From IMG/VR virus record IMGVR_UViG_3300017753_000065, positions 1 to 28,960 of that record: 28,960 nucleotides of DNA; one strand, 5' to 3'. Positions 1,240 through 28,960 of this stretch are shown piece after piece (position 1 is the first letter of the stretch; each line of letters opens with the position of its first letter). The DNA comes from a virus. The translations under genes were made by a program, and so were the position numbers. Below the pieces are notes generated by a model. It made no database searches. It was given only the letters and a program-made list of their open reading frames with translations, and was not told where the DNA came from.

Positions 1240-1271
1240 ATTAATATATAAGTGTTAAAAATTAATTTTGC
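1240..1271 (-). promoter_or_regulatory. Conserved late-gene upstream element, copy 1
   Basis: Read on the minus strand this is an A-rich half (GCAAAATTAATTTTTAACAC) followed by TTATATATTAAT placed directly before the ATG at 1239. The same layout occurs before the genes at 3175, 10549 and 27594 and in the terminase leader. It could be a phage late promoter or a strong translation initiation region. Confidence 0.5.
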
Positions 1272-1275
1272 ATTT

Positions 1276-1823: not shown

Positions 1824-1967
1824 TTATACTTTTCCTATACCTTGCGCTCTAAGGCTACCATCACAACACTCTATCTTGTAAGTGTTATCCTCACATAAAC
1901 AACCTCTACGTTTACCTTTAGGACTTGTTTTACTTGGTGTTATAAATTTCTTTATTAGCTTTCTCAT
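1824..1967 (-). CDS. Small Cys-rich phage protein (CCDGSLRAQGIG type)
   Basis: A 47-residue basic protein starting at ATG 1967, whose ATGA overlaps the stop of the protease gene, so translation is probably coupled. The N-terminal half is Lys/Arg-rich and the C-terminal half carries GCLCEDNTYKIECCDGSLRA followed by QGIGKV. Four cysteines in C-x-C and CC pairs suggest metal binding or a small disulphide knot. I recognise the pattern C-x-C-x-D-x-TY-x(3)-CCDGS-x(2)-AQGIG from Bacteroidetes phage structural regions, where it is usually called hypothetical. Function is unknown. Position next to the protease and scaffold genes suggests a minor head component. Confidence 0.65.
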   Translation of the reverse strand: MRKLIKKFITPSKTSPKGKRRGCLCEDNTYKIECCDGSLRAQGIGKV

Positions 1968-3175
1968 TTTATTGGAATACAATTAGGTACTAATCTACCA
2001 TTTTTCATTTTCATTCCGTATTGCTCATAACCAGCAGTACAAGGTGCTTTAAGGTTGTGTTGTTCACAAGGCATATACCAAGTCTTACCCTCAAACTCGT
2101 GTTCGTGGTATTTATCACATCCTATATCTTGTGCAGCTTTTATAGCAAGTTCTTTAGTTGCATAAGCTAATCTATCATCAATAATAGCCATAGTATCACT
2201 TACAACTTCACTTGCTAATTCTAATACACCTAATTCTTTTAGTTTGCTCTCTGCCCAACGCTTACCAGCTTTACCTCCCCATAGTAAATACGAGATAGTA
2301 CCACACGCTTTAGTATCTCCCTCATCATAGTACTCCTCTGCTCTTGATAAATAAGAGTACATACGTTTTATAGTTTCTTCGCTTATCGCTTTACCTTGTG
2401 CTAATTGTTGTGCTCTTACTTTTCCTACTTGTGTCGCACATTTGTTGTTTACTTTATCGTTTAACTCTAAGCCTCTCTTTGCATTGTTTTTAACACCACT
2501 TGGATAATCAGAGTAACTTTCTAAAGTAGTCTTTTTACCACCCTTATATCTTTTGTCATTTTTTATGATAGCCTTTACTTGAGCTAATAAGTATTCTGCC
2601 TCAGCTTCGTCTATCTCTTGTAGAACTTTATCACTACTAAAATCTTTGATAGCCTCTTTTGGTCGTTCCATCTTATCAGCGAAGTAACCCTCTATAGAAA
2701 ACCCTTTTACTTTACCTGTCTTAACAAACTCACTCCAAATCTTATCGTTGTTTACTTTTACAGCACCTACCCAAGTACCTAATGGTAAATCCATACCATA
2801 CTTTACAGACTTGTCGTGTACCTTATCTTCTACTATCCAACTCTCTACTAAACTAAGTCCGTTTATTTGGTATTGGTGTTCTAAGGTTGAGTTGTTTTGT
2901 TTGCCTTGCATTAAGTACATTTGTGAGGCTTTTAAGACAGTATCTTTTGAGAAGTATATGTAGTATTCATCTTCTCCGTTTCGTCTGTATATAGGCTTAT
3001 TTGGAATTAGTAAAGCACCCATTAAAATGCGTTTCTCTTTGTCTACCTCAGCAAGTTTAAACTCTTGTGATTTAAGTGCAATAAAATCTTCTTCTATTGC
3101 TGGATTTTCTACTACTGATATAGCTTCTATCCCTATCTCTTGTTCTTCGTCTAATATTAGTTCTACTATTCGCAT
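1964..3175 (-). CDS. Prohead protease, XkdF / Peptidase S78_2-like, with extra C-terminal domains
   Basis: A 403-residue protein. Residues about 1-170 resemble the XkdF-like prohead serine protease family (Peptidase_S78_2), with likely catalytic His100 (STLEH) and Ser160 in KGFSIEGYF. Such enzymes process scaffold and capsid proteins during prohead maturation. Residues about 221-316 form a second domain (SYSDYPSGVKNNAKRGLELN, then CATQVGKVRAQQLAQGKAIS and ISYLLWGGKAGKRWAESKL) that recurs in Bacteroidetes phage head proteins. Residues about 345-403 form a small Cys/His-rich module (C353, H357, H359, C370, H373, C379, C399). It starts directly after the conserved late element and overlaps the next small gene by ATGA. 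Family assignment is by motif; the roles of the two added domains are unknown. Confidence 0.8.
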   Translation of the reverse strand: MRIVELILDEEQEIGIEAISVVENPAIEEDFIALKSQEFKLAEVDKEKRILMGALLIPNKPIYRRNGEDEYYIYFSKDTVLKASQMYLMQGKQNNSTLEHQYQINGLSLVESWIVEDKVHDKSVKYGMDLPLGTWVGAVKVNNDKIWSEFVKTGKVKGFSIEGYFADKMERPKEAIKDFSSDKVLQEIDEAEAEYLLAQVKAIIKNDKRYKGGKKTTLESYSDYPSGVKNNAKRGLELNDKVNNKCATQVGKVRAQQLAQGKAISEETIKRMYSYLSRAEEYYDEGDTKACGTISYLLWGGKAGKRWAESKLKELGVLELASEVVSDTMAIIDDRLAYATKELAIKAAQDIGCDKYHEHEFEGKTWYMPCEQHNLKAPCTAGYEQYGMKMKNGRLVPNCIPIK

Positions 3176-3207
3176 ATTAATATATAATAGTTTTTAATTT
3201 ATTTTGT
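3176..3207 (-). promoter_or_regulatory. Conserved late-gene upstream element, copy 2
   Basis: Minus-strand reading is AAAATAAATTAAAAACTA then TTATATATTAAT directly before the ATG at 3175. It fills nearly the whole 34-bp gap after the tape measure stop. The segment ATACAAAATAAATTA that begins just upstream is identical to that before the gene at 27594. Confidence 0.5.
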
Positions 3208-3209
3208 AT

Positions 3210-9810: not shown

Positions 9811-10061
9811 TTAAACTTGTTTTTAATTCTTGCTGATTCTATTTCGTTTTTCTCTTTTGTGTACTCTAAATACGTTAAGCATTGATGTACGTTTAGTTTA
9901 GTGATATTTTCAAATTTTGTAATATCTCCGTTAGCGATTCCATAGAGTGCGTTAAACCATCCCCATTTGGATGAGAAAGCAGATGCTGAGCTAAAGCTAT
10001 CTCGTTCTTCTTCTCCAAAGAGTTCATCATAACCAGAGATAAGTCCTTGCCTAAATTGTAA
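9807..10061 (-). CDS. -1 frameshift extension of the tail assembly chaperone candidate
   Basis: This reading frame lies one base back from the 218-residue gene and overlaps it. It is open from 10103 to the TGA at 9807-9809 but contains no ATG, GTG or TTG, so it needs entry by frameshift. Slipping -1 on the T9 run at 10060-10068 gives 163 residues of the upstream protein plus 84 new ones, 247 in total. The new part contains YDELFGEEERDSFSSASAFS, KWGWFNALYGIANGDI, and a C-terminal helix with NVHQCLTYLEYTKEKNEIE. It has the look of a conserved phage protein I have seen in Bacteroidetes phages. Its stop overlaps the next ATG as ATGA. The layout parallels the lambda G/GT tail chaperones. Confidence 0.65.
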   Translation of the reverse strand, partial: LQFRQGLISGYDELFGEEERDSFSSASAFSSKWGWFNALYGIANGDITKFENITKLNVHQCLTYLEYTKEKNEIESARIKNKFK

Positions 10062-10549
10062 AAAAAAACTATTGCACCTAATACTGCATCTAAAGGAAAA
10101 TCTTTAGCATCTTCGCTTGTATCTGGGTCGTAGTCTTTTAGCTTGTATCTATGCCCTCTCTTGTGTTCTATTGGTCTGAACAATACATTTACTGCTCTAT
10201 GTAAATTATCATTATCGCCTATAAAGGTATCTAAGTCCATATACTCTCCAAAGCTCATATCATCTAACTCTGGTATAAACCCATACTCCACACCATTAAG
10301 TGTAAATCTATTTATAAGCTGGTGTTGTGCATCAAACATAGTATTTATGATTTCACAGACCTCAGCAATATCTGTTGCTTTCATATTCCTTACTACTATC
10401 TCTGGAACATTACAAAATATCTCTACTATCTTTAGTTGTATTGTAGAATCATTTGTATCATCTAACTTGTTTTCTAACTTTGCAAACTCTTGGTATTGTT
10501 TTAGAGTTACATCATTTAAAGTTGTCGGTATTCTTAGATTAACTTTCAT
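9893..10549 (-). CDS. Tail assembly chaperone candidate, unshifted 218-residue form
   Basis: A mostly helical, acidic protein beginning MKVNLRIPTTLNDVTLKQYQ. It contains KATDIAEVCEIINTMF, a short beta segment (INRFTLNGVEYGFIP), SFGEYMDLDTFIGD and the hydrophobic VLGAIVFFYNLGKDLSLV. Codons 161-163 (GTT TTT TTT) form a slippery run at which a -1 shift would replace the last 55 residues with 84 others. This arrangement of short and long products from one start is the hallmark of siphophage tail assembly chaperones, which guide tube polymerisation around the tape measure. It is unusual that it follows the terminase rather than immediately preceding the tape measure. The start sits right after the conserved late element. 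Confidence 0.6.
   Translation of the reverse strand: MKVNLRIPTTLNDVTLKQYQEFAKLENKLDDTNDSTIQLKIVEIFCNVPEIVVRNMKATDIAEVCEIINTMFDAQHQLINRFTLNGVEYGFIPELDDMSFGEYMDLDTFIGDNDNLHRAVNVLFRPIEHKRGHRYKLKDYDPDTSEDAKDFPLDAVLGAIVFFYNLGKDLSLVMMNSLEKKNEIALAQHLLSHPNGDGLTHSMESLTEILQNLKISLN
10060..10069 (-). promoter_or_regulatory. Slippery sequence for -1 frameshift
   Basis: The minus strand reads G followed by nine T, then AC. In the zero frame this is GTT TTT TTT TAC, containing T TTT TTT, which lets both tRNAs re-pair after a one-base backward slip. The next -1 codon is TTA at 10061. The T9 run could also cause RNA polymerase slippage, giving the same products. I did not find an obvious strong stimulatory stem-loop just downstream. 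Confidence 0.6.
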
Positions 10550-10581
10550 ACTAATATATAAACGTTTTTAAATTATTTTAG
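10550..10581 (-). promoter_or_regulatory. Conserved late-gene upstream element, copy 3
   Basis: The minus strand reads AAAATAATTTAAAAACGT then TTATATATTAGT directly before the ATG at 10549. It spans the whole 28-bp gap after the terminase large subunit stop and slightly overlaps its end. Confidence 0.5.
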
Positions 10582-11783
10582 TGAACAATATACTTACCTC
10601 TATTAGGATTTTGTAATTGATAGCCTACAGCGTATCTAACTGCATCTATCAAGTGATTGTATTTGTCTATTGGTGTATTGCTTTTGCGTTCTAACCAGCG
10701 ATAGTTGTTTAGTTCTTTGATGAGGTTTGTACTATCTGGACTTACCACTAAGTCATAGTCTTGTAATAAGCTTATTCCGTATGTAACACTTCCTTGACCT
10801 TTTATACTTGGCTTTACGTTACAATGTCTTTTAAGTTCTGTTATTAGTCTTGGCTCTGCACTATCAGCTACTATCAAACCATCTCTTGCGTGTTTCTGGT
10901 TTAAGTCTGCTATTTGTGATGTTGTAAGTCTTGGCAAGTAAAAGCACTCTTTTAGATATATTGTTTTATTAGCTTTGTCTATGTTTACCTCAACTAATGT
11001 AGATGGGTCAGCAGCAAAACCATAATCTTGACCCCACACACTTACGCTACTTCTTTTAAACTCTCCTATAGTCCAGTTGCTAAATATAACACCCTCAGCT
11101 TTAGACATCCAAGCACCTAACATCTGTTGTTTGTATTTCTCTGGTCGTCTTTCTCTCATCTGTGCTATTTGGTCTATATAGCTTTTAGATAGGTTGTCTA
11201 TGTTGTCTATATATGTGGTGTGTATGTAGGTAGTGTTTTCTTTTGTTGTATTGCTACCCTCTTGTACACCTCTATCTTCAAAGAAGCGTGTGTATATAAA
11301 GTGTTCTTTGGTAGTTGGGTTTAGTATTAGGATAACTCTGTTTTGTTTACCTTGTTGTCTTACTGATAAGTCTATAGTATCAAACTTCTGTTCGTCTGTT
11401 AGTTCCTCAGCTTCATCTACTACCCAAGTTGTAATACCTTGCAGAGATTTAAGGTTTGCAGTCTGGTCGCCACTTGATGTCTTGATACCTCTAAAGATTA
11501 TCTTGCTTCCTGTCTTTTTATTTAGTATCTCGTCTTTTGTTATATGGAAGTCGTGTACACAATTAAAGAGTTCTAACTTATCTATGAACTCTGGTATGAT
11601 TGATATGTATGCTGAGGTTAATGTATATCTTGTGAACAGGATTGTGTGTCCTTGCTCGTATGTAAGCATAACTAAGAGGGCATTGATAGTAAAAGACTTT
11701 CCACTACCTCTACCCCCACTAACTATAAAGTACCTACTATCTTCACTAAGTATAGGTTTGTATTTGTTATGTATATTAATCAA
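10578..11783 (-). CDS. terL: Terminase large subunit (PBSX / Terminase_3-like)
   Basis: A 401-residue DNA-packaging motor. The ATPase domain has Walker A GGRGSGKSF at residues 23-31 and Walker B WVVDEAEE (Asp123, Glu124). The C-terminal RNase H-like nuclease has the expected acidic residues at Asp253 (GQDYGF), Asp307 (VADSAEPR) and Asp380 (HLIDAVRYAVGY), and the flow YLKECFYLPRLTTSQIADLN is typical of the PBSX-type terminase family. No ATG is available before Walker A: an in-frame TAA lies three codons upstream, so the start is TTG 11783, overlapping the small subunit gene by 8 bp and probably using coupled reinitiation. Length fits the family. Confidence 0.93.
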   Translation of the reverse strand: MINIHNKYKPILSEDSRYFIVSGGRGSGKSFTINALLVMLTYEQGHTILFTRYTLTSAYISIIPEFIDKLELFNCVHDFHITKDEILNKKTGSKIIFRGIKTSSGDQTANLKSLQGITTWVVDEAEELTDEQKFDTIDLSVRQQGKQNRVILILNPTTKEHFIYTRFFEDRGVQEGSNTTKENTTYIHTTYIDNIDNLSKSYIDQIAQMRERRPEKYKQQMLGAWMSKAEGVIFSNWTIGEFKRSSVSVWGQDYGFAADPSTLVEVNIDKANKTIYLKECFYLPRLTTSQIADLNQKHARDGLIVADSAEPRLITELKRHCNVKPSIKGQGSVTYGISLLQDYDLVVSPDSTNLIKELNNYRWLERKSNTPIDKYNHLIDAVRYAVGYQLQNPNRGKYIVH

Positions 11784-12045
11784 CGAACTTTATTAAATCT
11801 CTAAAGTTGATGTTTAAGCCTTCACTTGAATTTATATCTACGCTTTCTTTTGGTTTACCATATCGGTAACTTAGATATAACTGTACAGCTCTCATATCTC
11901 CTTTAGATACTAACTCTCCTAATTTAGATAATGCTTCGTCTTTGTCTATTATTGCATCTAACCTTTCTATTAGCTTTTGCTCTTGTTGTTTTGTCTTTCT
12001 ACCAGCACCTTGTCTTGCACCTCCATTGTTTGCTCTCTTATCCAT
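11776..12045 (-). CDS. terS: Terminase small subunit-like DNA-binding protein
   Basis: An 89-residue protein overlapping the large terminase gene by 8 bp. The N-terminus carries NGGARQGAGRKTKQQEQ, the GxRxGAGRK hook found in many small terminases, followed by a helical region (KLIERLDAIIDKDEALSKL) and RAVQLYLSYRYGKPKESVD, another common terminase small subunit segment. It recognises packaging DNA and presents it to the large subunit. It is shorter than typical small terminases (about 140-180 residues), but such short forms occur in Bacteroidetes phages. It is the first gene of the late block, preceded by a leader with a late element and a palindrome. Confidence 0.8.
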   Translation of the reverse strand: MDKRANNGGARQGAGRKTKQQEQKLIERLDAIIDKDEALSKLGELVSKGDMRAVQLYLSYRYGKPKESVDINSSEGLNINFRDLIKFVD

Positions 12046-12082: not shown

Positions 12083-12114
12083 ATTAATATATAAACAATT
12101 TTAATTTTTTTTAG
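12083..12114 (-). promoter_or_regulatory. Conserved late-gene upstream element, copy 5 (terminase leader)
   Basis: The minus strand reads AAAAAAAATTAAAATTGT then TTATATATTAAT, matching the late element. Here it is followed by GAATTGATTAATC rather than directly by a gene start; the terminase gene starts 38 bp further on. A copy that is not tied to a gene ATG favours a transcriptional over a purely translational role. Confidence 0.45.
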
Positions 12115-12467
12115 CCTAATAGTATTTCTTCTATCAGTTCTATCTGTAGGTCAGTAGCCTTTGGTAACTTCTCCATCACATATAGTTTAGTATCTCCTAA
12201 TAGGTGTTTATATGTTAGCTCTATGTTTTTATTGTATTTACAATGTTGCTTATATGTGTTTAAGCTATGTATTATAGAACAATGTGATGTGTTATATCCG
12301 TTCTCTTTATATTCATTTACTATATCTCTAAATATCTTTTTGTTTTGTTTTCTCATATACTTGTTTGCTACACTTCGCATCTCTATAACCTCTCTACGTC
12401 TTGATTGCTCAAATATATCTATATCGTTTACTTGTAATATTATATCTCTAATTGCTTTTAATTTCAT
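12111..12467 (-). CDS. DnaA domain IV-like DNA-binding protein
   Basis: A 118-residue protein. Residues about 20-75 resemble the DNA-binding domain IV of bacterial DnaA: QSRRREVIEMRSVANKYMRK is the first helix pair, a helix follows (KKIFRDIVNEYKENG), and TSHCSIIHSLNTYKQH matches the position of the RDHSTVIHA signature helix that contacts the DnaA box. The Asp-His pair of DnaA is altered to Ser-His. The ATPase domain is absent. Such single-domain proteins occur in Bacteroidetes phages and may act at replication origins, in packaging-site recognition or as regulators. It is the last gene before the terminase block. Family level is moderately sure; function is inferred. Confidence 0.6.
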   Translation of the reverse strand: MKLKAIRDIILQVNDIDIFEQSRRREVIEMRSVANKYMRKQNKKIFRDIVNEYKENGYNTSHCSIIHSLNTYKQHCKYNKNIELTYKHLLGDTKLYVMEKLPKATDLQIELIEEILLG

Positions 12468-12616: not shown

Positions 12617-12783
12617 ACTATTGCGTTGTCTAATTGTTGTATTAAGTGTCTTAACTCGCTTCTTTCAAACTTACCTGTTATTTCTGCATTGTAAGTCTTA
12701 AAGGTTAAGTGGTACATATCTTTCTCTGCTTCGTGTTTGTTTTCTATTTTACCTAAGTATTCTATCTTTAAATTAAATTTCAT
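12613..12783 (-). CDS. Small protein, 56 residues, unknown
   Basis: ATG 12783 overlaps the stop of the diphosphohydrolase-like gene, and its TGA overlaps the next ATG. The protein begins MKFNLKIEYLGKIENKHEAE and continues YHLTFKTYNAEITGKFER, an alternating beta pattern, then ends with a short helix (SELRHLIQQLDNAIV). The layout of two to three strands and a helix would suit a small accessory DNA-metabolism protein. No family is recognised. Confidence 0.6.
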   Translation of the reverse strand: MKFNLKIEYLGKIENKHEAEKDMYHLTFKTYNAEITGKFERSELRHLIQQLDNAIV

Positions 12784-13226
12784 ATTGTTTTATTATATTG
12801 GCTCAAGGGTGCTTTACCCTCTTGTTCTAATTCTTTCTGTAGGTTAGCTAAGGCTCTCCAAGCTACCTTTGCTGAATGTCTTTGCATATCTTTGTCTATT
12901 GTACCAGCCTCTATTAAATGTCTTGCTAATGCATCTAATTCGTCTGATGACTTAGCTCTATCCCAATGCAGAGGTTTGTCTGGGTGGTGTTGTTCATTAC
13001 CAGCCCAAGATACTTTAGCTACCTCTCTTATTGCATCTGGGAAGTATTTAAGTACTCCACTATATACAGGCATTTGTTTTCTCTCTTGTTTTACCATTGC
13101 TTCATATTGGTAGAAGTCCTCTTCATCATATACACCAGCTTTCCATTCTTCGTACTCTAACTCTTCTTGTTCATTCATTGTATATGCAGATTCAGTACCA
13201 CTAATATAATCAATCTTTTTGTTCAT
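12780..13226 (-). CDS. dATP/dGTP diphosphohydrolase N-terminal-like (DUF5664-type) protein
   Basis: A 148-residue protein. Residues about 55-135 match the pattern of the phage dATP/dGTP diphosphohydrolase N-terminal family (DUF5664): SGVLKYFPDAIREVAKVS, then KPLHWDRAKSSDELDALARH, and HSAKVAWRALANLQKEL. The conserved His/Asp-rich helices (LDALARHLIEAG, RHSAKVAWRAL) correspond to the family's metal-binding helices. The first 50 residues are acidic and variable (EEWKAGVYDEEDFYQYE). Members may adjust the dNTP pool during infection. It overlaps a 45-residue gene upstream by 17 bp. Family is fairly sure; catalytic activity is not shown. Confidence 0.7.
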   Translation of the reverse strand: MNKKIDYISGTESAYTMNEQEELEYEEWKAGVYDEEDFYQYEAMVKQERKQMPVYSGVLKYFPDAIREVAKVSWAGNEQHHPDKPLHWDRAKSSDELDALARHLIEAGTIDKDMQRHSAKVAWRALANLQKELEQEGKAPLSQYNKTI

Positions 13227-15256: not shown

Positions 15257-15368
15257 TAGAGTTTTCAAATAACTCTTGAGCTTTTTGTACTGTGTGGCAA
15301 TCGAATAAAAAGTCTTTGCTAATCATTAAACCTTTTTTGTTTTTGAATGTAATTGTAAAAGTGTTCAT
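15222..15368 (-). CDS. Small early protein, 48 residues, first gene after promoter
   Basis: Starts at ATG 15368, 24 bp downstream of the -7 box at 15392-15399, in an A-rich leader (TTAAACAAAAACAATG). The sequence MNTFTITFKNKKGLMISKDF has the look of a small beta strand pair, followed by a helix (HTVQKAQELFENSNEASARS). Being the promoter-proximal gene, it should be expressed early and well. It overlaps the next gene by 35 bp. Function is unknown. Confidence 0.6.
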   Translation of the reverse strand: MNTFTITFKNKKGLMISKDFLFDCHTVQKAQELFENSNEASARSITKH

Positions 15369-15391: not shown

Positions 15392-15424
15392 CAAATATAT
15401 ATAAAAATAATTGTTATAAACAAA
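15392..15424 (-). promoter_or_regulatory. Bacteroidetes-type promoter
   Basis: The minus strand has TTTG (15424-15421), a 21-bp spacer and TATATTTG (15399-15392), matching the flavobacterial consensus TTG and TAnnTTTG with 17-23 bp spacing. It lies in a very AT-rich 77-bp gap and points to the small early genes from 15368 onward. Confidence 0.7.
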
Positions 15425-16174: not shown

Positions 16175-16566
16175 AAATTAAGTTTTTTAATGTTCCACAA
16201 TTCGCTTAAACCTTTTAATGTATTTATAAGTGATATTTCTTTTTTTGCTGGTTTCCAAATCTTATCCATATATATACTGTCCACTTGACATTTATTAAGT
16301 GGAATATCTTTATTGTCATTATCAAAATTGTGTGTAACATATAATACAACAACCTTAGATGTATGCCAAGAGTTTGCTATTCTTTCTAAAACTAATCTTT
16401 GACCTAATGGTATTTTGTTACCTTTGCGTTTGACTTCCATTAATATTAAAACCTCATTGTCAAATTCTAAAACTACATCTATGTCAGTAGGGTGTATCTT
16501 ACCACTTTCTATGCCAGTAAAATCTATAGTTTGTTTTACCTGTTTACTATTTCTTATTAAACTCAC
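16171..16566 (-). CDS. PD-(D/E)XK nuclease-like protein, 131 residues
   Basis: Starts at GTG 16566, overlapping the sigma-like gene stop as GTGA. The core reads HPTDIDVVLEFDNEVLILME followed by VKRKGNKIPLGQRLVLERI. This shows Asp30, Glu44 and Lys46 plus a Gln at about 56, the D-ExK-Q arrangement of VRR-NUC/Archaeal resolvase-type nucleases. A strand with KVVVLYVTHNF follows. The N-terminus (IDFTGIESGK) resembles the entry loop of such enzymes. It could be a resolvase or DNA-end processing nuclease. The motif is good; the exact family is unsure. Confidence 0.6.
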   Translation of the reverse strand: MSLIRNSKQVKQTIDFTGIESGKIHPTDIDVVLEFDNEVLILMEVKRKGNKIPLGQRLVLERIANSWHTSKVVVLYVTHNFDNDNKDIPLNKCQVDSIYMDKIWKPAKKEISLINTLKGLSELWNIKKLNL

Positions 16567-17057
16567 AGTTGGTCTTTTATGTGTTTTAAAGCGTTTCTGT
16601 ATGTATTGTATAAGCTATAATAACTTATCTTAGTATCTCTACTTAGCGAGGCTACAGACTTACCAGAAGCAACTAAAGTAAATACTTTACTATCATACCA
16701 ATACATCTCACTAAGTATATTATCTATGAAGTCTTTACGTTGTGCATATTCTATCTCGTCTATTCCTAATTCATCTATTTGTCTTATCTCTCCCTCTATA
16801 TCCTCTATATATCTTTTTATCATTCGTGCCTCTTTCTTATGAGTATTTAAATAAATTCCACGCAATACTTTATAGACATAGTAACTGTTAATTTCATTTC
16901 CGTACCATAAATCTAATCCTTTATCAATATCGCATATCAACTGTAGATACATACTTTGAACAACGTCCTCAGCCAAACTTGGATTACATCCAAAGCTTTT
17001 AACTATGTTTATCCAGTCTTTGTGTTTGTCGTAAGCAATTTCTACTAATGATTTCAT
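16563..17057 (-). CDS. Sigma-70 family-like protein
   Basis: A 164-residue helical protein. Residues 29-40 (AEDVVQSMYLQL) match the region 2 pattern of small sigma factors, where AED-x-VQ-x(2)-F is usual. Residues about 112-130 lead to a region 4-like helix-turn-helix at 132-158 (GKSVASLSRDTKISYYSLYN, then TYRNALKHI). The length is close to ECF-type sigma factors (about 170-190). In Bacteroidetes phages such genes are often noted as sigma-like. It could direct RNA polymerase to the phage late element found before several structural genes, but that link is my inference. ATGA overlap with the helicase-like gene shows an early operon. Confidence 0.6.
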   Translation of the reverse strand: MKSLVEIAYDKHKDWINIVKSFGCNPSLAEDVVQSMYLQLICDIDKGLDLWYGNEINSYYVYKVLRGIYLNTHKKEARMIKRYIEDIEGEIRQIDELGIDEIEYAQRKDFIDNILSEMYWYDSKVFTLVASGKSVASLSRDTKISYYSLYNTYRNALKHIKDQL

Positions 17058-18842: not shown

Positions 18843-19058
18843 TTATATGTCTTTAAAATAAACAAAAGGATTTATATTACCAAATAAAAACTGCAAATTT
18901 AAAACACTTGAATATTTTAAGTCTGCTACATAGCTTTCGCTTTCTAAGGCTTCTACTGTTATGTTTACTAAGTCTGGCTCTGATATGTTCTTTACTTTAA
19001 GAGCATCTTTGTAGTGGGGTTTAAGCCTATCATAGAGGCTAATCATTTTGTAAGTCAT
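18843..19058 (-). CDS. First gene of the early operon, 71 residues, unknown
   Basis: Starts at ATG 19058, 24 bp after the -7 box of the promoter at 19082-19112, in an A-rich leader (AATAAAACAATTACAATG). The sequence has a helix (TYKMISLYDRLKPHYKDALK), a segment with EPDLVNITVEALESESYVAD, and an aromatic end (LQFLFGNINPFVYFKDI). It is acidic overall. I recognise no family. First-gene position after a strong host-type promoter suggests immediate early expression and possibly a host takeover or regulatory task, which is inference only. Confidence 0.6.
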   Translation of the reverse strand: MTYKMISLYDRLKPHYKDALKVKNISEPDLVNITVEALESESYVADLKYSSVLNLQFLFGNINPFVYFKDI

Positions 19059-19081: not shown

Positions 19082-19112
19082 CAAAGCTACAAATTATTTT
19101 TTAATAAACAAA
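19082..19112 (-). promoter_or_regulatory. Bacteroidetes-type promoter for the early operon
   Basis: The minus strand has TTTG (19112-19109), exactly 19 bp, then TAGCTTTG (19089-19082), a full match to TTTG/TAnnTTTG. It begins just after a terminator and drives the 71-residue gene and the SSB-region genes. This is the best promoter match that I found in the window. Confidence 0.75.
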
Positions 19113-25426: not shown

Positions 25427-27247
25427 CTAATTCTTAAATCCTATTTTATTCCAATACTCAGCAGTATAACCTTTATACTTCATATCTTTAGGTGCTACAG
25501 GTACTTTCTGTGCGTTTGCTTCTGGCTTAAAACCTCTTGACCTTGCCTCTGACGTTGTTATAGCATCTCCTAAACCTTTTGCACCATCTTTACGCACATA
25601 CGTCTTTCTAAGCCATTTATGTTGGCATCTCGCACCACCCTTGTAAAGCCATATAGAATAAGTATCACTTCCACCTTTACCAAAACCAGCATTAACTACT
25701 TTTTTATCCATAGAAATAATATCCTCTTTTCTATATACCTTTTTAGCATCTACCATTTTCTTACAAAACTTTCTTGAGTTTGCACTATATCTCTGTGGAG
25801 AATACATATATCTAACTAAGAAAGTATTACCCTCCTCAGCTTCTTGTTTGCTCTCTCCATCTTGCTCACTCTCTCTAAAAGGCTTTGCACTACCTGTACT
25901 TACAAACTCCCATATTTTAGCAAGTGTGCTTTTTTCTTTTGGTTTGTTTAAGTCCGTAATAACCTCGTCTAAGCCATCTTCTTCGTCATAGTTAACCTCA
26001 CGCTCATCCATTACGTCAAAGTCGCTTAAAAGCTCTTCCTCGTCCTCTCCTAAGTCAATTAAAGCATCTGCTATTTCTACACCTAAATCTTCTGGTAATT
26101 CCTTAGCTAACTTTACTCCTGTTTCTTCTTCTCTTGTTTCTTCGTCTTCTACGTTTTCTAAGTCTGTAAACTCAAGTGGTTGTAAGGTCTTAAAGTATAG
26201 TTTTAAGCTAATATTATTAAAAGCTAATATCTCATCAAAGGCATCTATTAAAAGATGCTGAAATGGTCTAATAACTGTGTTATCCATTAACGTACTTGCA
26301 GTCTGTAACTCATCTGCGTTGTTTCCTAAACCTGTACTATCTTTAATTCCTAATAGCATAGGACTTACTACCCTATGTGCTACCATTATCTTTTTACTAC
26401 TTTCGTCTGATAAGAACTGGTATTGATTATGTGCATCACTTAGTTGTATAGGCTCTATAGTTGCTTGGCTCTCTGCATTGTCATTAAATGCAAGTATAAA
26501 CTTACCAGCATTACTTGACCCACTAAACTTTTGATATATTCTATTCTCTAACATTTGACGTTCCTCAGCGTTTGGAGTTCCGTTGTTAAAGTTTATTAGC
26601 ATACTTGGTGCTAATCCGTTTAGAATGTTGTTTAAGTGATAGTTACTTATTTCTTCTTCTAACTCACTATATTGTAAACCACCTTGATAGTCTGGACTAC
26701 TATAATACTTGTACCCAGCTCTGTAAGGTTTTACATATAGTATTTCTATGTTTTCATTAGATAAACCAAAAGATGGTATTCTCTTTAGTTCTGTACTTTG
26801 TTTTACTTTACTCCAATTATCAGAATAATAGTAAGCAGCTATTTGTCCTTTTTCGTTACACTTTTCTGCTCTTAAGTTTTCTACAGGTATATGCTCTACT
26901 TGGGCGATAGTCTTTCTATCCTTAGAGTAGATTATCTGTATAGCACATTGACCCATTAGCTTTAAGTCATAACATAACTTTCTTACGCAATCTTTATTAA
27001 ATAACGTAATCATTTTAGCGTATGCTTCTGGCTTTCTGTTGCTATTTAAAGCATCTAAGCCTTTACCATAAATCATTTGGCTAATACCATTAATTATAGC
27101 ATTGTTTGTAGGACTTCCGTTATATCTGTCTATTAAGTACCCAAAGTAATTATTATCACTTCCGTAAGCAACCCATTTCTTGTTAGACTTCTCTACAATC
27201 TCTGGACTTGTATAGGTGCTTAAATTAACTATTCTTAAATCGTTCAT
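25427..27247 (-). CDS. Portal protein with C-terminal extra domain
   Basis: A 606-residue protein that forms the DNA gate at one capsid vertex. The portal core (about 1-370) has SNKKWVAYGSDNNYFGYLID, NNAIINGISQMIYGKGL, KLMGQCAIQIIYSKDRK, and the wing/stem helices EERQMLENRIYQKFSGSSNA and IMVAHRVVSPMLLGIKDSTG. An acidic stretch follows (about 370-435). Residues about 475-606 form a separate domain with RYMYSPQRYSANSRKFCKKM, GFGKGGSDTYSIWLYKGGAR and CQHKWLRKTYVRKDG. I recall this module from protease or other head proteins of Bacteroidetes phages, so the fusion looks like a moved domain. It overlaps its upstream gene by 4 bp. Portal assignment is strong. Confidence 0.8.
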   Translation of the reverse strand: MNDLRIVNLSTYTSPEIVEKSNKKWVAYGSDNNYFGYLIDRYNGSPTNNAIINGISQMIYGKGLDALNSNRKPEAYAKMITLFNKDCVRKLCYDLKLMGQCAIQIIYSKDRKTIAQVEHIPVENLRAEKCNEKGQIAAYYYSDNWSKVKQSTELKRIPSFGLSNENIEILYVKPYRAGYKYYSSPDYQGGLQYSELEEEISNYHLNNILNGLAPSMLINFNNGTPNAEERQMLENRIYQKFSGSSNAGKFILAFNDNAESQATIEPIQLSDAHNQYQFLSDESSKKIMVAHRVVSPMLLGIKDSTGLGNNADELQTASTLMDNTVIRPFQHLLIDAFDEILAFNNISLKLYFKTLQPLEFTDLENVEDEETREEETGVKLAKELPEDLGVEIADALIDLGEDEEELLSDFDVMDEREVNYDEEDGLDEVITDLNKPKEKSTLAKIWEFVSTGSAKPFRESEQDGESKQEAEEGNTFLVRYMYSPQRYSANSRKFCKKMVDAKKVYRKEDIISMDKKVVNAGFGKGGSDTYSIWLYKGGARCQHKWLRKTYVRKDGAKGLGDAITTSEARSRGFKPEANAQKVPVAPKDMKYKGYTAEYWNKIGFKN

Positions 27248-27594: not shown

Positions 27595-27626
27595 ACTAAT
27601 ATATAAACAAAACTAATTTATTTTGT
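27595..27626 (-). promoter_or_regulatory. Conserved late-gene upstream element, copy 4
   Basis: The minus strand reads AAAATAAATTAGTTTTGT then TTATATATTAGT directly before the ATG at 27594. It follows a terminator, so new initiation of transcription is needed here for the portal operon, which supports a promoter role. Confidence 0.55.
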
Positions 27627-27636
27627 ATTGTATTAA

Positions 27637-27668
27637 TAAAAAAAGCCACCCCCTTTAAGAGATGGCTA
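27637..27668 (-). terminator. Rho-independent terminator after the tail tube gene
   Basis: The minus strand reads AGCCATC TCTTAAAGGG GGTGGCT followed by seven T. The 7-bp stem has one T-G pair. It lies between the tail tube candidate and the late element that precedes the portal operon. Confidence 0.8.
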
Positions 27669-28337: not shown

Positions 28338-28960
28338 TTAATCGTAAAGAACTACGTCTGCACCAACACCGATTTGTACACCAGCAGTATATCGCATAAC
28401 GATACGCACATTCATACTACCATCGTTCTCAGCCATATCAATAACTCTTACTTCGTTTCTGTCATCTAATAGACCTGTTCCGAAGAATAAGTTAGAAGTT
28501 CTTGCTGCGATTGCACAGTTATCTCTTAAACCACTTGTTGGGTATAAATCAACACCATCAAAAGAAGTTGCACCACCTTGATACCACATATGTGATTGAG
28601 CATCTACACCAGAGTTAGTAGCAGCAAATCCACCTAAAGCTCTTACATAAGCCTTAAAGATATTTTGTGATACATATATTTTTAAATCCTCAGCACCATA
28701 TACTCCAGAAGGAATAGCATCAACGATTTTCCCAAGTTCAGCAACAACGTTAGCAGAAGTTACTGTAGTTCCTGTAACATCATTTACAGTACCATCAGCT
28801 AAAGCTAAAGCTCTAAACCCATCAAAATCATCAGCACCAGAAGCACCATCCCAAAGAGAAGTTTCTGTAGCAGAAGCAACCTCAGCAGCAACTCTTGAAA
28901 TTACGAAATCACTAAATAGTGGAGGTAAGTTATCAAATGCAGAATATCCCATTTGAGCAG
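28338..28960 (-). CDS. Major capsid protein, C-terminal 207 residues (partial, allele 2)
   Basis: This frame is open at the right edge and ends with TAA at 28338. It continues in frame into bases 315-604 after joining at the shared 55-bp sequence; an internal ATG at 28952 is not the true start. The sequence includes GYSAFDNLPPLFSDFVISRV, ETSLWDGASGADDFDGFRAL, DLKIYVSQNIFKAYVRALGG and the end IVMRYTAGVQIGVGADVVLY. A G-loop/P-domain layout with KIYVSQNIFKAYVRALG helix and a hydrophobic final strand fits an HK97-fold capsid subunit of 303 residues. A strong terminator follows. Allele 1 at the left edge differs at about 12% of bases over 260 bp. Confidence 0.75.
   Translation of the reverse strand, partial: AQMGYSAFDNLPPLFSDFVISRVAAEVASATETSLWDGASGADDFDGFRALALADGTVNDVTGTTVTSANVVAELGKIVDAIPSGVYGAEDLKIYVSQNIFKAYVRALGGFAATNSGVDAQSHMWYQGGATSFDGVDLYPTSGLRDNCAIAARTSNLFFGTGLLDDRNEVRVIDMAENDGSMNVRIVMRYTAGVQIGVGADVVLYD
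28906..28960. repeat. 55-bp exact repeat, right copy (join point)
   Basis: Identical to 261-315. Joining the two copies restores one uninterrupted 303-residue capsid frame and gives a circle of about 28,645 bp. Confidence 0.9.

Follow-up and report, generated by a model that had tools for sequence, protein, structure and literature searches.

Putative late promoters adjoining start codons in a phage related to the Nonlabens phages P12024S/L, and a phage-encoded ECF-type sigma factor as their probable reader

The window, by which we mean the whole stretch of DNA analysed (28,960 nucleotides), is a virus record, read here as a marine flavobacterial phage, that carries genes for terminase, portal, tail, endolysin and holin, and every large gene lies on the minus strand. 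Along this strand an early block (19.6 to 12.6 kb) is followed by the terminase leader, the late operons and, last, the lysis genes. The nearest annotated relatives are the Nonlabens phages P12024S/L (the portal is 36% identical), and related portal genes are found on contigs binned with Flavobacteriaceae, Bacteroidia and Polaribacter, the binning being no proof of the host. The main features are listed below, with scores in bits from the weight matrix (PWM) described further on.

27644..27667, minus strand: intrinsic terminator directly 5' of copy 1 (10-bp stem, then TTTTTT; dG -13.6)
27595..27628, minus strand: putative late promoter, copy 1 (portal operon); abuts the ATG of a 116-aa gene; PWM 37.4; kept in the portal leader of relatives
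25427..27247, minus strand: portal protein, second gene of the operon behind copy 1 (phrog_33693, 9.6e-115)
19082..19111, minus strand: putative host-type sigma-A promoter, TTGTTTATTAAAAAATAATTTGTAGCTTTG, ahead of early genes including the sigma gene
16566..17057, minus strand: phage sigma factor, ECF-type, with sigma2 and sigma4 domains (phrog_1740, Sigma70_r2, 1h3l profile, fold matches); proposed reader of the element
12083..12116, minus strand: putative late promoter, copy 5 (terminase leader); 37 nt before the ATG of gene 11776-12045; PWM 23.1
10578..11783, minus strand: terminase large subunit, terL (phrog_2, 1.4e-47)
10550..10583, minus strand: putative late promoter, copy 4; abuts the ATG of gene 9893-10549, just after terL, and overlaps the terL end; PWM 29.9
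3176..3209, minus strand: putative late promoter, copy 3; abuts the ATG of the protease-like gene 1964-3175 (Peptidase_S78_2) and fills the 34-nt intergenic gap; PWM 34.0; conserved
1240..1273, minus strand: putative late promoter, copy 2; abuts the ATG of gene 616-1239, in an operon that runs into the putative capsid gene; PWM 34.5; conserved

A capsid-like protein (phrog_11320) runs across both window ends, and the genome is therefore circular or circularly permuted. Positions 1-313 and about 28646-28960 form an imperfect direct repeat of ~310 nt inside the capsid-like gene; in the protein across the junction residues ~98-206 are nearly duplicated, and relatives have them in single copy. The probable explanation is a circularly permuted contig whose overlap shows strain variation, which would give a true length of about 28.6 kb. 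Two further minus-strand genes have recognizable products. The gene at 12780-13226 carries a dATP/dGTP diphosphohydrolase N-terminal domain (PF18909, 2.2e-9) and likely encodes a nucleotide-pool enzyme. The one at 1964-3175 encodes an XkdF-type serine protease (PF14550), near the C-terminus of which a DUF3721-like stretch scores just below the cut-off, and the ORF length differs widely among relatives (about 308-536 codons).

The five copies of the element had been pointed out in a first-pass annotation of this DNA, and all are present where it placed them, all on the minus strand. Four are directly followed by an ATG (at 1239, 3175, 10549 and 27594), as it had stated, and the copy at 12083, described there as set back from its gene, ends 37 nt 5' of the ATG at 12045. 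In the 5'-3' direction the ATG-adjoining copies read GCAAAATTAATTTTTAACACTTATATATTAAT, ACAAAATAAATTAAAAACTATTATATATTAAT, CTAAAATAATTTAAAAACGTTTATATATTAGT and ACAAAATAAATTAGTTTTGTTTATATATTAGT, and the fifth reads CTAAAAAAAATTAAAATTGTTTATATATTAAT. Common to all five are an AAAA box ~30 nt from the element end and the 12-mer TTATATATTArT, in which only the A/G position varies. The shared sequence claimed earlier is thus confirmed for the 12-mer, but the A-rich half is kept only partly, as the AAAA box with A/T filler. The spacing from AAAAT to TTATAT is 13-14 bp, which is shorter than usual for sigma factors. Where relatives have a CGT, the window copies have none at the same distance; the 10550 copy alone has CGTTTATA, and this lies 3 nt further up. 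The 27595 copy is palindromic (ACAAAA...TTTTGT), which was dropped as a feature, the other copies being without it.

The string TTATATATTART occurs exactly five times on both strands of the whole window, each time within one of the five copies; with one mismatch allowed there are nine matches (3.3 expected), a number reached in 0 of 100 shuffles. The weight matrix, trained on 42 sites of relatives with the window excluded, gives the five copies the scores listed above and the next best window site 12.7 bits. Markov shuffles of the whole window score up to 11.9. The earlier annotation had named as counter-evidence a motif no commoner than in shuffled AT-rich intergenic sequence; in 200 such shuffles the best score has a median of 5.2 and a maximum of 17.3, compared with 23.1-37.4 for the copies. 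Among 42 same-strand ORF starts, a score above 0 is found only at the four ATG-adjoining copies, and AAA at -30 to -28 is invariant in all 42 training sites. The matrix scan of the window gives no match on the plus strand and none in the early region, where the element had been reported absent, so that the recurrent promoter-like motif is confined to late operon heads. A generic sigma-70 hexamer scan was uninformative (91 matches, 90.5 expected).

The relatives examined comprise 80 portal-related loci and 17 longer relatives. The motif search over the genome and its relatives, which the annotation had proposed as a check, returns the five window sites only and, in nearly all relatives with a readable leader, the same operon heads. 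The genomes of the window's clade (class A) have 3-6 matches each, all on the coding strand and nearly all at operon heads; only an in-gene match in G007 and a match duplicated at the contig ends of G013 depart from this. The terminase-leader copy is kept despite different genes there in G001, G007, G008, G010, G011 and G018.

The wording of the element agrees closely within a genome and differs between lineages. TTATATA is found in 49/49 class-A sites and GTTATA in none of the 49, whereas all 19 sites of the sister genomes have GTTATA, 15 of them as CGTTATA. The cultured Nonlabens phage P12024S has seven copies with CGTTA, G027 has three CGTTTTAAA-like copies, and G035 and G036 have three copies each with CGTTATA; those of G031 read CGTTTTTAATAT/CGTTTATAATAT, and those of G037 CGTTTTAAC and CGTTATAA. 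Such a lineage-wide, concerted rewording would be expected of copies that are all read by one trans-acting protein. Before several genes of G025 (L332/L333), which has a divergent sigma homologue, a different two-box wording, CTTCCAAAT...TTGTTATTC (TTTTGTTATTC), was read by eye only.

In the window and its relatives the distance from the element to the ATG is 0 in most cases. The 10550-type copy lies 12 nt from the ATG in G014, G007 and G008, and an offset of 14 nt is found in G018. The terminase-leader copy is 26-29 nt from the ATG in G005, G009, G013 and G014, 37 nt in the window and 40-41 nt in G010 and G011, and in G028 the element core is set back by several A-rich nucleotides. This variability speaks against a ribosome signal, for which a fixed distance is expected. 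The terminator reported just 5' of the 27595 copy was found again, and about 43 nt, most of them filled by the element, separate its T-run from the ATG of the portal operon; a promoter must therefore lie in this interval. A terminator-like hairpin with a T-run is present at most 100 nt upstream of the portal-operon ATG in 16/18 genomes (4/180 shuffles). The other element leaders have terminators in 6/15, 1/17 and 0/18 cases, and terminator-like hairpins were absent from the four operon-internal control genes.

At the ATG-adjacent copies, codon-position constraint is seen from codon 2 on, with third positions varying most. The element core is nearly unvarying in three of the four genes (the fourth includes offset copies), and the DNA just upstream varies at about 0.6. 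This pattern indicates that the abutting ATG is the true start, and for an element acting as a promoter a transcription start 3' of this ATG would be ruled out. The late transcripts are thus probably leaderless or nearly so, as far as can be judged from the DNA. Leaderless mRNAs, or mRNAs with leaders of a few nucleotides, would be unusual in the host phylum: among flavobacteria, leaderless mRNAs are a minority (5.5% in F. psychrophilum), and in F. johnsoniae 87% of the leaders are longer than 10 nt (PMC6847099).

The product of 16566-17057 matches the phage sigma family phrog_1740, as do 22/24 of its homologues. Sigma70_r2 is detected in 13/24 homologues, the window protein itself being below the Pfam cut-off, and a profile match is found to region 2 of S. 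coelicolor SigR (1h3l, E 0.018). A single-sequence structure (pLDDT 59) was replaced by an alignment-based AF2 model (pLDDT 80.9, pTM 0.48), which is helical and has two domains. The best Foldseek matches of this model are nearly all sigma factors, ECF members first (best E 2.4e-3, support at the domain level). Its halves superpose on sigma2 (1h3l, Z 9.2, 2.4 A/70 aa) and sigma4 (3hug, Z 8.0, 2.0 A/65 aa), Z values of 8-10 being not decisive alone for small helical domains. The sigma assignment is in agreement with the family matches, with the order of sigma2 and sigma4 and with a conserved AEDVVQ..Y stretch, and the protein has the ECF architecture, namely sigma2 and sigma4 only in about 160-190 aa. 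A phmmer search against the PDB gave a chance match only, and tblastn of the window sigma against annotated phages gave no match; the homologue P12024S_33, annotated as Sigma-70 region 2 and above the Pfam cut-off, came from annotation and Pfam. The L142, L143 and L155 homologues have a ~17-aa insertion in the linker between the two domains.

Sigma homologues are present in 16/23 near-group records, including all 13 of at least 24 kb, and in 14/15 wider records of at least 23.9 kb. G024 (L330/L331), the only such near-complete record without a sigma by the profiles used, also has no element in its portal leader or scanned starts by the pattern used, which is a single case in a record that may be incomplete. 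More generally, the pairing of sigma and element is a co-occurrence of two traits that are inherited together. The portal-operon gene of G024 is preceded by TAAATTTG and by a hairpin with a T-run almost at the ATG, and a switch to host-only transcription is possible in this phage.

In the early block, TTGTTTATTAAAAAATAATTTGTAGCTTTG lies 23 nt before the early gene at 19058, and a similar -7 box is found at the same place in most relatives. The host sigma-A pattern is not enriched in the window overall (2 on the coding strand, 5 on the opposite one), and only the conserved position before this one early gene carries weight. A second host-type promoter string, TTGTTTATAAC...TATATATTTG, is located at 15392-15423 (minus strand) in a 385-nt gap; behind it come an A-rich leader and, near 15368, an ATG (the ORF is outside the gene list used), and similar strings occur in some relatives.

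Taken together, the element copies are probably late promoters dedicated to the phage-encoded sigma factor, in a cascade that leads from host sigma-A by way of the phage sigma to the late operons, the early-to-late order being deduced from the position of genes and promoters. Host sigma-A RNA polymerase would transcribe the early block including the phage sigma gene, and the phage sigma would then join the host core polymerase, with sigma4 touching the AAAA box near -30 and sigma2 melting TTATAT(ATTA). Transcription is predicted to begin at the A of the start codon or within a few nucleotides of it (if TTATAT occupies -12 to -7, the start would fall on this A), which would leave four of the five late operon mRNAs with no leader or almost none. 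Such mRNAs would suit a Bacteroidetes host, the ribosomes of which have no need of Shine-Dalgarno pairing. Of the two readings offered by the first-pass annotation, a phage-specific late promoter giving almost leaderless mRNA is the better supported, considering the conservation at operon heads, the terminators, the offsets of 12-41 nt, the concerted rewording and the sigma gene.

Against the other, an SD-independent initiation region, stand the offset copies and the concerted rewording. In its fuller form this explanation takes the element for a translation-initiation signal (A/T-rich, unstructured, with A-3 and A-6, the Kozak-like context of Bacteroidetes) in mRNAs from promoters further upstream, and we regard it as unlikely. 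The contact of four of the five copies with an ATG is what it would predict, as are the A-6 present in class-A copies always and the A-3 present in 41/42, both positive determinants of translation in F. johnsoniae (PMC6847099). It does not account, however, for the copies 12-41 nt upstream of the ATG in several genomes, the loss of A-6 in P12024S, or the -10-like box that switches in concert; the element is absent before most late genes, those for the portal and the putative capsid among them, and the terminators just 5' of the portal-operon copy leave no room for another promoter.

A similarly improbable reading gives the phage sigma some other task and has the element recognized as a promoter by a host sigma in unmodified form (sigma-A or a host ECF) or by host polymerase together with a phage activator. 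The annotation had seen no match to the host TAnnTTTG box, and four of the five window copies indeed lack it (and TTTG); the 27595 copy does contain a string of this type, TAGTTTTG, and a host promoter is possible there. Among 66 distinct class-A elements TANNTTTG is found in 10 and TAHHTTTG in 4, and flavobacterial ECF sigmas use a CGT -10 box, which would fit a host reader; yet the rewording of all copies within a lineage is easier with a phage-encoded one, and the conserved phage sigma and the joint lack of sigma and element in G024 also argue against it. The length, strong conservation and low copy number of the element also resemble promoters of phage-encoded single-subunit (T7-like) RNA polymerases, a reading to which we give hardly any credence: among the window proteins scanned (some small ORFs were outside the scan) no polymerase family match was found, the 867-aa protein has only a weak fn3 match and sits among late genes, and P12024S has no annotated polymerase.

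With the dedicated phage sigma as the preferred reader, the relatives point, with rather less assurance, to a widespread family of Bacteroidetes phages that run the whole late programme through an ECF-type phage sigma. Promoters in this family may be fused to start codons, leaderless mRNA may be the rule at late operon heads, and sigma and promoters may have repeatedly switched specificity together (CGTTA, CGTTT, TTATATA). If so, these versions form a natural series for reading the evolution of sigma specificity, and the lineage-specific promoters and sequenced sigmas are material for studies of sigma/promoter co-evolution. Late mRNAs without leaders, in a phylum that has no Shine-Dalgarno signals, would, if true, be a simple coupling of promoter and start codon. 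Little is known of how Bacteroidetes phages organize transcription, and the putative late regulon described here is concrete and testable, has a likely reader and is applicable to the cultured P12024S; the elements could also serve as orthogonal promoters for flavobacteria. In the literature searched (published papers, with part of the subscription journals), no description was found of promoters of P12024S-type phages or of promoter-start-codon fusion in Bacteroidetes phages.

Phage sigma factors with promoters of their own are known (phiEco32 gp36, T4 gp55). T4 gp55, likewise a phage sigma, acts at late promoters with an AT-rich, -10-like sequence; these are without a -35 box and depend on gp33/gp45. 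A sigma4-like domain sets the protein described here apart from gp55, and the element differs by its conserved upstream box (the invariant AAA at -30 to -28) and by the motif TTATATATTA in place of the T4 TATAAATA. Flavobacterial ECF (SM6) promoters have CGT in the -10 region (PMC9723704). This is shared with most relatives of the window phage, but the window's clade has TTA instead of CGT, and the proposed reader is phage-encoded. The Start-Associated Sequences of mycobacteriophages (13 bp, AGGAG, 3-7 bp from the start, non-structural genes only; PMC3203893) are likewise conserved repeats beside start codons of phage genes, whereas the present element is AT-rich, has two boxes, precedes late operons and contains no 13-bp GGGATAGGAGCCC-like repeat. 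In the lytic phages phiEco32, 7-11 and SU10 the phage sigma gp36 goes with a few dedicated middle/late promoters that share one -10-like motif, tAATGTATA, 6-8 nt upstream of mapped starts, and with host-type early promoters (PMC4331800, PMC4281155). The window likewise has a phage gene for a sigma-70-family protein, a few motif copies before late genes and a host-type early promoter. It differs in the motif (TTATATATTA or CGTTATA, in the window TTATATATTArT, and not tAATGTATA), the conserved upstream box, the abutting start codon, the Bacteroidetes hosts and the starts, which are predicted here and not mapped. By analogy, the system of the window would work like the phiEco32 type, but it is no member of the phiEco32 lineage.
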